In this document: piece by piece, positions 18,116 through 26,457 of the stretch | Position numbering within the stretch: position 1 is the first letter of the stretch | How the letters are laid out: each line of letters opens with the position of its first letter | NCBI GenBank assembly: GCA_937936705.1 | Contig: CALHCP010000146.1 | Coordinates: 1-33,925, forward strand | DNA from: an uncultured cyanobacterium | Lineage (GTDB): Bacteria > Cyanobacteriota > Cyanobacteriia > Gloeomargaritales > Gloeomargaritaceae | DNA: 33,925 bases | Reading direction: 5' to 3' | Position numbers and translations under genes: made by a program | The notes under the pieces: model-generated | Told to the model about the DNA's origin: nothing | The model's input: only the letters and a program-made list of their open reading frames with translations | Databases searched by the model: none

Positions 18116-18200
18116 GGGAAACCTCTCTTAATTATTAATTAGGGGTAAGTGGCCGCCGGGGTGCAGCCCCCGGCTGGGGTTCTCCAGAATGTTTGTTCTT
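18116..18200 (+). repeat. Dispersed repeat, copy D1
   Basis: GGGAAACCTCT left end, core GGCCGCCGGGGTGCAGCCCC, short right half ending TTGTTCTTATAGCAATCC. First of three adjoining copies downstream of the permease gene. Confidence 0.75.
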
Positions 18201-18322
18201 ATAGCAATCCTAATAGCAATCCTAATTGAATTGAGAATGGCGGTCGCGGGGGCGCAGCCCCCGATAAACTCAGTATTCCAGCGAGATGATTTTCTGCTGG
18301 CTCCAACAAATAGAGGTGCCCA
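18200..18322 (+). repeat. Dispersed repeat, copy D2
   Basis: TATAGCAATCCTA appears twice at the left end, core GGCGGTCGCGGGGGCGCAG, long right half ending AAATAGAGGTGCCCAT. Confidence 0.85.
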
Positions 18323-18434
18323 TAAATCAAGTCATATTGCTATGGGGAACCTCTATAAATTACAAACAAGCGGTCGCCGGGGCGCCGCCTCTGACCTTGG
18401 TTCCCCGTAATTCTTGTTCTCAAATCAGGTCATC
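18323..18434 (+). repeat. Dispersed repeat, copy D3
   Basis: Starts in AAATCAAGTCATATTGCTAT, continues with GGGGAACCTCTATAAATTAC, core AAGCGGTCGCCGGGGCGCCG, and ends AAATCAGGTCAT. Joined directly to D2. Confidence 0.85.
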
Positions 18435-18601: not shown

Positions 18602-19573
18602 ATGATTTTAACTGATGATGTGATGAATTGCTTGCCCATTGGGGTTGTTCTGACCCAGGAACAGGGGCGCATTTTTCATTGTAATCAGGTCATGGCGGAT
18701 TGGTTTCAACTTGATCCCCAGCAGGTACGGGGCAATAACATTACCGAATTCTGGCCGGAATTGATGCCCTATTTGCGGTGGCAGGAAGCGGGGGGACGGG
18801 TACGATTGTCCACCTCGGAGAGTTGGTTAATGATGCGGGTGGTGGTGCGGAAATTGTCTCTTGAGGGTGCCGGGGGTTTGGTCTGGAGTTTTGTGCCGGA
18901 GCATAGCCGGGATTTGGAGCAGTCTCAACAGGAGTTCATTGATACGATTAGCCATGAATTGCGTACCCCGTTGACCAGTATTAAGGGGTTTGTGGATACG
19001 TTGTTGCAATCTCAGGAGCATTTCAGTCATACCCAGATTCGCCATTTCCTGGAAATTGTCCAAACCCAAGTGGCACACCTGTCGGCTCTGGTGGAGGCGG
19101 TGCTGTCCGTATCGCGGTGGCAGGTCTTACCGGGGCATTTTCGACCGGTGCAGGTGGCGGATTTGGTGCCGGAGGTGATGCAGGAGTTGGCTTTGGAGCA
19201 TGATACTCGGCGGGTGGTGTGGTGCCTCCACGAGATGCCGCCGGTGTGGAGTGACCCGGTGCTGTTGGTGCCGATTTTGGTACAGGTGTTGGATTATGCC
19301 TTGACCCATACGCCCGGCGATACCCAGGTGCAGGTGCGGGGGTGGCCGGGGGGCAACGGCTTGCAAATTGGGGTGCCGGAGTTGGATTTGGGCGAACTCT
19401 GGTATCCTTTGGGGCCAACCCGACCGGGGATGGGGTTGTATGTGACGCAAATGCTGGTGGAACGGCTCCAGGGACGCTTGTTGTTGGGTCAGGGACTGAC
19501 TTTGGAATTGCCGCGGGTGGCTCGGATGACCCCAAGGGTGGCAGGCTTAGCCCAACCGGATGTTTGGAATTGA
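18602..19573 (+). CDS. PAS-domain histidine kinase with degenerate ATP-binding domain
   Basis: Sensor kinase-like protein without membrane segments. A PAS-like domain (about residues 5-100) is followed by a HisKA dimerisation domain with the phosphoacceptor H118 in ISHELRTPLTSIKGF. The catalytic domain (about 205-310) is short and altered: the N-box, normally N-A-x-K, reads VLDYALTHTP with Tyr232 at the Asn position; the G1 box D-x-G-x-G is replaced by PELDLGELW; only a G2-like GMGLYVTQMLVERLQG remains. Autophosphorylation is doubtful; it may act as phosphatase, scaffold or partner of another kinase. The next gene on this strand encodes a receiver-domain protein. Forward repeats lie upstream and inverted repeats downstream. 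Confidence 0.85.
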   Translation: MILTDDVMNCLPIGVVLTQEQGRIFHCNQVMADWFQLDPQQVRGNNITEFWPELMPYLRWQEAGGRVRLSTSESWLMMRVVVRKLSLEGAGGLVWSFVPEHSRDLEQSQQEFIDTISHELRTPLTSIKGFVDTLLQSQEHFSHTQIRHFLEIVQTQVAHLSALVEAVLSVSRWQVLPGHFRPVQVADLVPEVMQELALEHDTRRVVWCLHEMPPVWSDPVLLVPILVQVLDYALTHTPGDTQVQVRGWPGGNGLQIGVPELDLGELWYPLGPTRPGMGLYVTQMLVERLQGRLLLGQGLTLELPRVARMTPRVAGLAQPDVWN

Positions 19574-19589
19574 TACAGATTTCTGGTTA

Positions 19590-19681
19590 GGGCACCTCTA
19601 TTGGGCGAACAAAGACTCTGGAGAACCAAGGTCGGGGGCTGCGCCCCGGCGACCGCTGTTCCGTAATTTATAGAGGTTCCC
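19590..19681 (-). repeat. Dispersed repeat, copy E1, apparently complete
   Basis: 92 bp with both terminal inverted repeats: GGGCACCTCTATT at one side and TATAGAGGTTCCC at the other, with the usual GC-rich core between them, in minus orientation. Confidence 0.9.
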
Positions 19682-19688
19682 AATCTAA

Positions 19689-19822
19689 AGACACCTCTAT
19701 TTATGGGAGCCAAGCGGAAATTCAGAACGCCCAAATGACGGAGAACCACAGCGGGGGCTGCGCCCCGGCGACCCCTTGTACCTCATCACTTGTCCCTCAT
19801 TAATACATGAGTAGAGGTTCCC
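19689..19822 (-). repeat. Dispersed repeat, copy E2
   Basis: 134 bp, minus orientation, ends ACACCTCTATTTATGGG and GTAGAGGTTCCC. It carries an extra internal stretch ATTAATGAGGGACAAGTGAT (reverse) absent from E1. Confidence 0.85.
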
Positions 19823-20128
19823 GTTAATTTAAGGCACTTCTATTACTTGCCGTCAGCCCCAAAGCATCTCCCTGAAACCCTCTGATTCCAGGGAACTCCG
19901 CCCCCTGCGACCGGTATGCAAAAACCCAATCCCATGAGCGCAACCTTGCCCCGGCAACCCTCGCTTAAAATTCATAAACGATTATGGCAATTGCGACATA
20001 TTTTGTATTATTCTAAATTGGAATTGGCTTCAATTAAATCCCGTTGCCACCTACGAGTTGGCTGGTATGGCTGTTTTCAATCTGGGAACCATGGCTCTCG
20101 TCATCATGCTTTGTCTAGGGGTAAGACT
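19823..20128. other. Intergenic stretch before the hybrid regulator
   Basis: Holds a partial repeat end (AAGGCACTTCTATT, 19831-19844). From 19950 to 20110 it is richer in A and T than its surroundings. The regulator frame is open through 19916-20128, but the sequence does not look like the family and is taken as untranslated leader. Confidence 0.55.
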
Positions 20129-20132
20129 GTGA
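20067..20132 (+). other. Possible 21-codon leader peptide overlapping the regulator start
   Basis: ATG 20067 opens a short hydrophobic frame, MAVFNLGTMALVIMLCLGV then R-L and TGA, whose stop overlaps the GTG start of the regulator as GTGA. The ribosome site is weak. It could be a coupling leader or chance. Confidence 0.25.
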
Positions 20133-21922
20133 CTCAAGATCTAAGTCAAGAACTGAATGCGTTACAGCAGCGGCAAGTCACCGGCACGTTGGTGGTGCAG
20201 GCAGAGGGGCAAACCTGGTGGCTTTACCTGTTTATGGGACGACTGCTCTATGCGACGGGGGGCGAACATCGGGTACGGCGTTGGCAACGGGTTTTGAAAG
20301 CCCATAGCCCCCAGTTTCAGCCGGACTGGCATAGCTTGGGAAATGCGGCTCCTTGGGAGTATCACAGCTTGGTGCAGGGTACCGCCAATGGCCGCCTCAC
20401 GCCTTCCCAGACCAAAGCGGTGATTTTGGCGAGTGTCTTGGAAGTGTTATTTGCCCTGGTGGGCCAAGCCAATCTCACCTTAACCCTGGAGTCGGGACAG
20501 GGGTTGAGTACGCAAATTGCCCTTTTGCAGGTGCAACGGGTGTTGGCAGAAGTCGAACAACTGCAACAACAGTGGCAGGCAACGGGGATCACCAAGTGGG
20601 GGAAAATTACCCCGAATGTGGCGCCGGTCGTCAAACGAGCCGAGCAAATCCAAGAGCAAGCGGGGGGAACCCAGTGGCTGACGCTATTGAACGGCCAGAA
20701 CACATTTTGGGATGTGATGACCTGCACCCGCAAATCACTCCAGGCGAGCGTCCAACCCCTGATTCCTTGGCTAGAACAGGGCTGGCTCGAATTGCAAACC
20801 CTGCCGGATCTGCCCGCGCCGCTACCGGAACGGGTCTCTTCCCCCTCGGCCGCAGCGGCAACCCTACCCAGCAATAGTCATCAGCCTTTGGTGGCCTGTC
20901 TCGATGACAGCCCGGTGATGCTCAAAATTTTGGAAACGACCCTGGTGCGGGCGGGGTATCGGGTCATGACCGTGTCCGAACCGATGATGCAGATGGCCTC
21001 GCTCTTGGAAGCCAAACCGGCCGTGATTTTGATGGATTGGGTCATGCCCAACGTGAACGGCTACGAACTCTGCGGTCTGCTGCGGAAAACCTCGGTCTTC
21101 AAAGACACCCCCATTTTTCTGATCACCGCCCACGAAAGCATCGTCAACCGCACCCGCGCCCGCCTGGCCGGGGTCACGGAAATGCTCAAGAAACCCGTTT
21201 CCCCGGAAGAATTATTCAAACTGGTCAGCCGCTATGCTCCCCTGCGTAGCGATAGCCCGCCTCCCGCCCCCGAACCGCTACCTCCCGAACTCACCACCGT
21301 TCCCCCCGAAGCGGAACCGCTGGTGGATCAACTGGCCGACCCGGTTGCCCAAGCCCATCAACTGCTCCAGCGTTATGCCGCCGGGGAACGGGACTTTACC
21401 GGCATCAGCCTGATTGGCTGCAACCTCCAGGGCGCCAACCTGGAGGGGATCAATTTGTCCCGCGCCGACTTGATGCTGGCCGATTTGAGCGGCTGCTTAC
21501 TGATCGGGGCGAAACTCTCCGGTGCCAACCTCATCGGGGCAGAGATGGTGAAAACCAACCTGAGGGAAGCCAGCCTCAGCGGTGCCAACCTGATCGGCGC
21601 CAACCTCAGTCAGGCGAATTTGCGGGGCTGTCAGTTGATGGGAGCCAATCTCAGTTCCGCCACCCTGTACCAAACCCATCTGCGGGGAGCCGACCTGAGC
21701 GAAGCCCTCATCGCCGGTGCCAACCTCACCAGTGCGGATTTGCAAGCAGCGGTTTTGTACGCCACCAATCTCCACGGCGCCGTGTTGAATCAGGCCAACT
21801 TCGAGCACGCCAATTTAACCGGGGCGAATCTCTGGCAAGCTCGGATGGAACAGACCAATGTCGAAGGTGCTAATTTGACGGGTGCCGTGCTGCCGCAAGT
21901 GAACAGTGATGGGCAGACCTAA
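20129..21922 (+). CDS. PatA-like (DUF4388)-receiver-pentapeptide hybrid response regulator
   Basis: 597-residue regulator. Residues 1-230 resemble the PatA/PixG N-terminal (DUF4388) region: DLSQELNALQQRQVTGTLVV then WWLYLFMGRLLYATGG. Residues about 253-370 form a receiver domain with D259/D260, phosphoacceptor D303 (LMDWVMPN), T333 and K355, all intact. A proline-rich linker leads to about 35 pentapeptide repeats (residues 423-595, A-N-L-x-G type), predicted to form a quadrilateral beta-helix. PatA-like regulators usually end with the receiver, so the added helix is unusual. GTG 20129 is chosen because AGGGG lies upstream and the family begins with this sequence; the frame is open back to 19916. 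The histidine kinase upstream is a candidate partner. Confidence 0.88.
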   Translation: MTQDLSQELNALQQRQVTGTLVVQAEGQTWWLYLFMGRLLYATGGEHRVRRWQRVLKAHSPQFQPDWHSLGNAAPWEYHSLVQGTANGRLTPSQTKAVILASVLEVLFALVGQANLTLTLESGQGLSTQIALLQVQRVLAEVEQLQQQWQATGITKWGKITPNVAPVVKRAEQIQEQAGGTQWLTLLNGQNTFWDVMTCTRKSLQASVQPLIPWLEQGWLELQTLPDLPAPLPERVSSPSAAAATLPSNSHQPLVACLDDSPVMLKILETTLVRAGYRVMTVSEPMMQMASLLEAKPAVILMDWVMPNVNGYELCGLLRKTSVFKDTPIFLITAHESIVNRTRARLAGVTEMLKKPVSPEELFKLVSRYAPLRSDSPPPAPEPLPPELTTVPPEAEPLVDQLADPVAQAHQLLQRYAAGERDFTGISLIGCNLQGANLEGINLSRADLMLADLSGCLLIGAKLSGANLIGAEMVKTNLREASLSGANLIGANLSQANLRGCQLMGANLSSATLYQTHLRGADLSEALIAGANLTSADLQAAVLYATNLHGAVLNQANFEHANLTGANLWQARMEQTNVEGANLTGAVLPQVNSDGQT

Positions 21923-25296: not shown

Positions 25297-26457
25297 ATGA
25301 CCTATTCTCCTGCTGCGAAACCCTCCCGTTTCCCCATCCGCCGCTGGTTCAGGAAGATGCAAGTTCCCTTCACGCTGCTGATTGTGGTGCTGTTGATGAT
25401 GGCCATCTTGGCCGGCTGGTACTGGTTGGCGGGCGTTGTCACGTTATTGTCGCTGGTCTTGGCATTGGAATTGTTTTGGGATTCTATTCAACAGTTTTTT
25501 CAGGAAATTCACCCGGAAGAATCCTCTTTGTTATTGGGTGGCATTTCTTTATTTACGGGGTTTATTGGCTTATTGGTGTGGGTGTGGGGACGGGGGGGTT
25601 TGCAGATTAATTGGGATGTGGCCTCGGCCTTGGGGGACAGTCTGGGGGCGGTGGGACAAATTTTGGTGGCTCTGGTGGCGGCGGTGATTTCCTGGCAGCA
25701 GTATGTGATTTCCAAAGTCCTGACCGAGCAGCAAAATCGCATTACCCAACAGCAAACCATTGATGCTTATTTTCAGGGGATTTCCGAATTGGCGTTAGAT
25801 GACCAAGGTTTATTAGAAGATTGGCCGCAGGAACGGATGATTGCCGAAGGGCGCACGGCGGCTTTATTGAGTAGTATCAACGCCGAAGGCAAAGCTAAGG
25901 TCGTGCGCTTTCTGTCTATGGCCAAGTTGTTGACGCCCCTGAGACGGGATCAACGCTTGGGGCGGCCGATTTTAGATGGCAATGGCTTGTATCAAGAGGA
26001 TCGGGAAAACGGGGAACGGGTGATTGATTTAGACAATATGCTGGCGGGCGCGGATTTGGCGGGTACGGATTTGCGGCGGGTTGATTTCAGTAAAGCGGAT
26101 TTGAGCGGTGCCAATTTTACCAATTGCAATCTCGCCCGCGCTAACTTGGCGATGACCAATTTACAGGGGGCAAAATTTAACGGCGCCAATCTCCAGGGCA
26201 CGATTTTCTACTACGGTGAACCGGAAAAGTGGGATTATGCCAGTCCCTACCAGCCTTGGATCAAGGGGGAGCGCCCCAATTTGCAAACGGGGGAATATAC
26301 CGGCGCGATTGTCGAGGGAGCGGATTTTAGCGGCGTTCACAATCTTTCCGAAGAACAGCGGTTTTATCTCTGTTCCTGGGGGGGAGGCCGCACCCGCAGT
26401 ACGATCCCCGGCGGCTGTCAGGGCATTCCCAGCAAGCTCTACGGGGGCGAGGGTTAA
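25297..26457 (+). CDS. Membrane protein with pentapeptide repeats
   Basis: 386 residues. After a basic N-terminus come about three hydrophobic segments (near residues 24-57, 75-98 and 113-137), then a cytoplasmic helical region (KVLTEQQNRITQQQTID) and about 12 pentapeptide repeats (D-L-x-G-A/A-N-L-x-x type, residues about 250-310), with a further short block GADFSG. Such proteins are common in cyanobacteria; no function is established. It stands 36 bases after galE on the same strand and could be read from the same transcript. Its stop overlaps the stop of the convergent DinG-like gene by four bases within GGTTAACC. Confidence 0.85.
   Translation: MTYSPAAKPSRFPIRRWFRKMQVPFTLLIVVLLMMAILAGWYWLAGVVTLLSLVLALELFWDSIQQFFQEIHPEESSLLLGGISLFTGFIGLLVWVWGRGGLQINWDVASALGDSLGAVGQILVALVAAVISWQQYVISKVLTEQQNRITQQQTIDAYFQGISELALDDQGLLEDWPQERMIAEGRTAALLSSINAEGKAKVVRFLSMAKLLTPLRRDQRLGRPILDGNGLYQEDRENGERVIDLDNMLAGADLAGTDLRRVDFSKADLSGANFTNCNLARANLAMTNLQGAKFNGANLQGTIFYYGEPEKWDYASPYQPWIKGERPNLQTGEYTGAIVEGADFSGVHNLSEEQRFYLCSWGGGRTRSTIPGGCQGIPSKLYGGEG

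Follow-up and report, generated by a model that had tools for sequence, protein, structure and literature searches.

A putative histidine pseudokinase next to a PATAN-receiver-pentapeptide regulator gene in Gloeomargaritaceae

Described systems and layout of the locus

Cyanobacterial response regulators of the PatA/PixG/PixE/LsiR type carry a PATAN domain followed by a receiver with a complete active site, and regulators with a PATAN domain make contact with PilB1 and direct pili in Synechocystis (PMC12288463, PMC7690835). The regulator described here shares this layout, and across residues 5-390 the nearest PATAN-receiver (PATAN-REC) proteins are ~36-42% identical to it. Its receiver, however, is followed by a pentapeptide beta-helix of 35 units, a combination seen in Gloeomargaritaceae only, and the regulator's neighbour is a putative pseudokinase rather than a CheA-type system. 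On the kinase side, the nearest described comparison is with ChpT and Spo0B, dimeric histidine phosphotransferases of kinase-like build that combine a phospho-acceptor histidine in the DHp domain with a degenerate CA domain and no plausible autokinase activity. ChpT, a relay case, has a kinase-like fold without an ATP lid and does not autophosphorylate (PMC3433190). A lidless CA domain is common to ChpT and the pseudokinase, the latter as known here from its sequence and an AlphaFold2 monomer, whereas an N-terminal PAS domain, a HisKA DHp of the PhoR/WalK type and an independent origin from an rpaA-linked kinase set the pseudokinase apart from both phosphotransferases. Orthologous to it are the rpaA-linked PAS-HisKA-HATPase kinases of Gloeobacter and relatives, which differ in their intact ATP sites, in their position downstream of rpaA and in the GGDEF-REC gene that is often next to them. 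Finally, HetL, Alr5209 and Qnr-MfpA share the pentapeptide beta-helix, as judged from a structural model and a fold search, while here that helix is mildly acidic and fused to PATAN-REC.

The window, i.e. the whole stretch of 33,925 nucleotides that was analysed, is one whole contig of a 2.05 Mb genome that is 83% complete (G000). It was compared with a sample of 390 cyanobacterial genomes in which G000-G007 make up the family Gloeomargaritaceae and G000-G006 the genus of the window; these include Gloeomargaritales cyanobacterium VI4D9 (G002), Gloeomargarita sp. SKYG116 (G006) and a member of the sister genus, Gloeomargaritaceae C42_A2020_066 (G007). G005 is probably G. lithophora, and G020 is presumably Gloeobacter violaceus PCC 7421. 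The features are as follows.

18602-19573, +: putative pseudokinase gene, PAS (residues ~6-100), DHp/HisKA (~105-172), degenerate CA (~180-306); Pfam, 16-orthologue alignment, AlphaFold2 model, tree
18950-18985, +: H-box SHELRTPLTSIK; HisKA phosphatase-type motif, E119 and T122 with His118
18953-18955, +: codon of phospho-acceptor His118; 16-orthologue alignment
19139-19519, +: degenerate catalytic/ATP-binding domain; N-box Asn to Tyr232, Lys to Thr235, DxG and F-box/lid deleted
19574-20110, no strand: expanded intergenic region (23-81 nt in relatives) with two palindromic repeat copies (19634-19654, 19753-19773)
20129-21922, +: gene of the PATAN-REC-pentapeptide regulator; starts at GTG 20129 or else at TTG 20111, which lines up with the ATG in G002/G005
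20129-20593, +: DUF4388/PATAN domain; Pfam, PATAN-REC proteins from other cyanobacteria 36-42% identical
20885-21232, +: receiver domain, complete active site; Pfam, orthologue alignment
21035-21037, +: codon of the receiver's phospho-Asp303; orthologue alignment
21341-21898, +: helix-capped pentapeptide beta-helix, ~35 units; Pfam, AlphaFold2, fold search, NCBIfam
18151-18393 and 19634-19773, also 8003, 10401 and 28855: sites of the palindromic repeat

The kinase gene and its ATP site

In the 323-residue product of the kinase gene (18602-19573, + strand) Pfam recognised a PAS domain and HisKA (54.3 bits; cut-off, 26.9), and HATPase_c reached 14.9 bits, below its cut-off of 26.4, so that the label of a degenerate kinase given in an earlier note on this DNA holds. 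Like active HisKA/HATPase_c kinases the protein has a phospho-acceptor histidine in its H-box, but it lacks the N, G1 (DxGxG), F and G2 boxes with which such kinases bind ATP. His118 and Glu119 are invariant across all 16 aligned orthologues (HELR.P H-box), and Thr122, four residues past the histidine, is kept in all seven genus members; the same seven share identical losses at the ATP site, the motifs of which are intact in the alignment in 9/9 other orthologues examined. Relative to the intact kinases, identity is 73% in DHp helix 1 and falls to 31% in the CA domain. AlphaFold2 (mean pLDDT 77.8, pTM 0.55) predicts a PAS domain, a hairpin-shaped DHp domain and the core of a CA domain that is disordered at the expected position of the missing lid, and a fold search with this model retrieved WalK, HK853 and further histidine kinases.

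Orthologues in the six genus relatives are 70-84% identical to that of the window, and selection, estimated from pairwise NG86 values only, gave a dN/dS of ~0.14-0.16 in close pairs, with similar values for the CA remnant alone. A decaying pseudogene is ruled out by this ratio (~0.14) and by seven intact open frames. Since the ATP site is destroyed in all seven genomes, His118 and the Glu/Thr pair are invariant and dN/dS is ~0.14, the gene is, as judged from these comparisons, a maintained histidine pseudokinase that has lost its ATP site and is under purifying selection, and its product cannot plausibly use ATP.

A DHp histidine together with a CA-like domain predicted to be unable to bind ATP (from sequence and the AlphaFold2 monomer) is the composition of a phosphotransferase of the ChpT/Spo0B kind. 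In DivL, a tyrosine takes the position of the phospho-acceptor histidine; no such replacement is found here, as His118 is kept throughout. One may also consider that the pseudokinase acts as a scaffold similar to DivL or RetS, heterodimerising with another histidine kinase or controlling it allosterically, without phosphate chemistry of its own, which is a known outcome for degenerate kinases (PMC4211667, PMC5361649); a profile search did place DivL among the solved relatives of the protein. A pure scaffold, however, would not need His118, Glu119 and Thr122, which persist in 7/7 genomes, and because of this strict retention phosphate chemistry is favoured and we regard pure scaffolding as quite unlikely.

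Orthologues beside rpaA and the Kai clock

At E <= 1e-25, orthologues of the kinase were observed in 19 of the 390 genomes, namely the eight family members, G026, G061 and nine genomes of families f14, f30 and f33. In ten of them (all nine from f14, f30 and f33, plus G007) the gene comes immediately 3' of a same-strand rpaA orthologue, a linkage taken from coordinates, with gene maps for G020, G085, G095, G104, G065, G113 and G007. The linked regulator is RpaA, scoring 475 bits against the solved RpaA chain 9dvt_R. Orthology of the rpaA-linked kinases was established from how far the next best match lay behind and from a tree, in which 16 kinase orthologues form one clade (99/99), with the genus and G007 joined at 100/99 and the genus on a long stem. 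We also considered an SphS/PhoR phosphate kinase, which was rejected: PhoR models gave ~99 bits against a cut-off of 334, and it is RpaA to which the orthologues are linked.

A GGDEF-REC gene stands 3' of the kinase in G020, G085, G065 and G113; the same holds for G026 and G061, whose rpaA is at another locus (the assignment was checked with Pfam in G020, G085, G065, G026 and G061). Clusters of rpaA, a PAS histidine kinase and a GGDEF/REC gene were seen at L060, L142, L145 and L146, and without the third gene at L143 and L144, all in KaiB-less cyanobacteria. No description of the rpaA-adjacent kinase of Gloeobacter and Anthocerotibacter was found in the openly readable literature. Throughout the genus of the window, the kinase has no rpaA linkage (7/7 genomes); rpaA lies elsewhere with other neighbours, as mapped in G000, G001, G002 and G005. 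Judging from the tree, the alignment and gene order, the ancestor of the pseudokinase was a kinase with an intact catalytic domain, of the kind that early-branching cyanobacteria have next to rpaA, and the genus moved the gene away from rpaA and lost its ATP site.

This ancestry raises an alternative in which the pseudokinase still serves RpaA, binding, dephosphorylating or titrating it and thereby opposing SasA in clock output, the PATAN neighbour being incidental. Besides the linkage in ten genomes, the pseudokinase keeps the phosphatase-type HExxT, KaiB is present in the genus together with a second KaiB-domain protein that is as long as SasA, and the contact residues of DHp helix 1 are the same as in rpaA-linked kinases, so that RpaA may still be a partner of the pseudokinase. 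Against it stand the divergence of helix 2 and the CA domain, two further parts that contact receivers, from those of the rpaA-linked kinases, and the gene order: no genus member has retained the linkage to rpaA, and five have the PATAN regulator as neighbour. Continued service to RpaA therefore seems unlikely.

KaiB was surveyed in the 390 genomes with Pfam PF07689, which detects the KaiB-like domain of SasA too. It is missing in 11, nine of which are the f14/f30/f33 genomes with rpaA-linked kinases, the others being G051 and G296 (68% complete); since the nine come from three families only, they represent few evolutionary events. Of the 379 KaiB-bearing genomes, ten have the kinase (E <= 1e-25), in one case linked to rpaA (G007) and in seven catalytically dead. 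Gloeobacter violaceus and Anthocerotibacter panamensis are described as lacking kaiABC (PMC8874327), for Gloeobacter also in a second source (PMC5520375). The rpaA-linked PAS kinase is thus a candidate pre-clock RpaA kinase. The fuller history would be that the gene of the window is a relic of this kinase, which sat beside rpaA where Kai was absent, was mostly lost after SasA took over and persists in Gloeomargarita, with its ATP site dead, as a phosphatase or phosphotransfer module now wired to a PATAN-receiver-pentapeptide adaptor; taken as a whole, we consider it rather doubtful.

The regulator, its neighbour and a proposed working

Pfam scores for the regulator were 31.1 bits for DUF4388 (cut-off, 25), 73.3 for Response_reg and 197.8 for Pentapeptide. 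A start at 19916, assumed previously, proved wrong, as it would add 65-71 unconserved residues; translation begins at TTG 20111 or GTG 20129, since only from there on can the orthologues be aligned. The receiver does look functional, as the earlier note had it: the acidic pair D259/D260, phospho-Asp D303, Thr333 and Lys355 are invariant in seven full-length orthologues. An N-terminal PATAN/DUF4388 domain followed by a receiver (Pfam and homology) is what regulators of the PatA/PixG kind have, but this one does not end at its receiver, which is followed by ~220 residues of linker and pentapeptide helix. The 35-repeat beta-helix proposed in the earlier note was recovered, with 35 five-residue units by register (good core pattern in 31) and ~34 regular turns in AlphaFold2 behind a capping helix at 405-417. 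HetL, NP275-NP276, MfpA and Qnr folds were matched in the fold search, the NCBIfam Alr5209-type model gave 167.8 bits on this region (cut-off, 125), and Qnr/MfpA NCBIfam models scored under their cut-offs. The repeat domain has a net charge of only -2 to -9 over ~175-190 residues and, given this mild charge, DNA mimicry, which had been suggested for its surface, is not indicated.

The full PATAN-REC-pentapeptide span was found in 8/390 genomes, all of them Gloeomargaritaceae (G000-G007, in two pieces in G004), and in none of the other 382 at E <= 1e-60 with the best three candidates per genome considered. Searching the GTDB collection (84,980 species) with two peptide patterns yielded no full-span matches outside Gloeomargaritales, and no description of this domain order was found in the openly readable literature. 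Thus, the order looks undescribed, as had been surmised, and in these searches it is confined to this family.

Other proteins with related parts were also observed. G007 encodes a 1133-residue PATAN-REC-pentapeptide-PAS-GGDEF-EAL protein (L057:2836-6237), in which the same front end is joined to c-di-GMP enzymes. A second PATAN-REC paralogue, ~54% identical, without pentapeptides and with its receiver acidic pocket changed from DD to DA, lies directly downstream in G001, G003 and G006 (L048:7202-8455, L051:5187-6455, L055:4242-5498). Within the window, three genes on, there is another pentapeptide-repeat protein (25297-26457), whose N-terminal half has a weak cation-efflux match.

Both genes are conserved across the genus at 68-84% identity, which excludes chance, and they are real neighbours on one strand in the window and in four relatives, i.e. 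in the same order in five of the seven genus genomes (G000, G001, G003, G005 and G006). The gap is 23-81 nt in G001, G003, G005 and G006 and ~540 nt in the window, owing to inserted repeats. A compact operon was rejected for the window, given this gap and the promoter-like and terminator-like sites there, which are at chance level. The palindromic repeat GGGGGCTGCGCCCCGGCGACC (<=2 mismatches) has 238 copies in the 2.05 Mb genome of the window against zero in a control, with 27, 42 and 55 copies in G002, G004 and G005 and none in G001, G003, G006 and G007; it resembles a REP-type element that would have spread within a single branch of the genus, and Rfam gave no match at its gathering threshold.

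All seven genus genomes hold both genes, so kinase and regulator do co-occur, although the regulator is broken in one of them (G004). There, a transposase-like ORF is inserted within the receiver of the PATAN-REC-pentapeptide gene (L052:7740-8850), with a short direct repeat containing TTCAAAGAC on both flanks; the insertion looks recent. The two genes lie apart in G002 and G004, and G007 has a regulator unlinked to its intact kinase. Because of the separation in G002 and G004, and because the pseudokinase of G004 is intact beside an IS-split regulator, the link between the genes is common and not obligatory. These cases stand against joint action of the two proteins. They also fit independence of the two genes, with common descent as the sole reason for their proximity, another kinase phosphorylating the regulator and an unrelated function for the pseudokinase. 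Order and strand are nevertheless the same in 5/7 genomes, with short gaps in four, and intact kinases precede a non-DNA-binding receiver protein, GGDEF-REC, in G020, G085, G065, G113, G061 and G026; independence is accordingly very unlikely. Of the two-component pair proposed in the earlier note, the conserved neighbourhood and the undescribed domain order stand, whereas an ordinary kinase-regulator pair does not, since the kinase has lost its ATP site; further against it are the mostly rpaA-linked orthologues outside the genus and the unlinked or broken cases above.

Our preferred reading, to which we give a probability of about 0.45, is that the pseudokinase, once linked to rpaA, acts without ATP on the neighbouring adaptor-type regulator, as its phosphatase or its phosphotransfer partner. 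Depending on the state of the PAS domain, the DHp dimer would strip the regulator's receiver of phosphate or relay phosphate to it, and the receiver would gate the adaptor's output; here we infer both the joint action and the direction of phosphate flow. PATAN would contact a partner, for which PilB, the motor of type IV pili, is proposed by analogy, and the pentapeptide helix would serve as a rigid scaffold or as an arm for docking. In 8/8 family genomes there is a long match to a PilB-like ATPase (~480-550 bits); as TIGR02538 never passed its curated cut-off, PilB identity is taken from these long matches, and an output to pili may be expected by analogy.

The locus offers a placeable case of a histidine kinase that would have lost ATP binding and kept the residues that handle phosphate; intact orthologues from close relatives can serve as controls, and the lineage, that of Gloeomargarita, is held to be sister to plastids. 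It also points to a candidate ancestral RpaA kinase in clockless cyanobacteria, so that the drive on RpaA before the Kai clock becomes testable in Gloeobacter, and the PATAN-REC-pentapeptide order may represent a new output arm in a class of regulators known to steer type IV pili.
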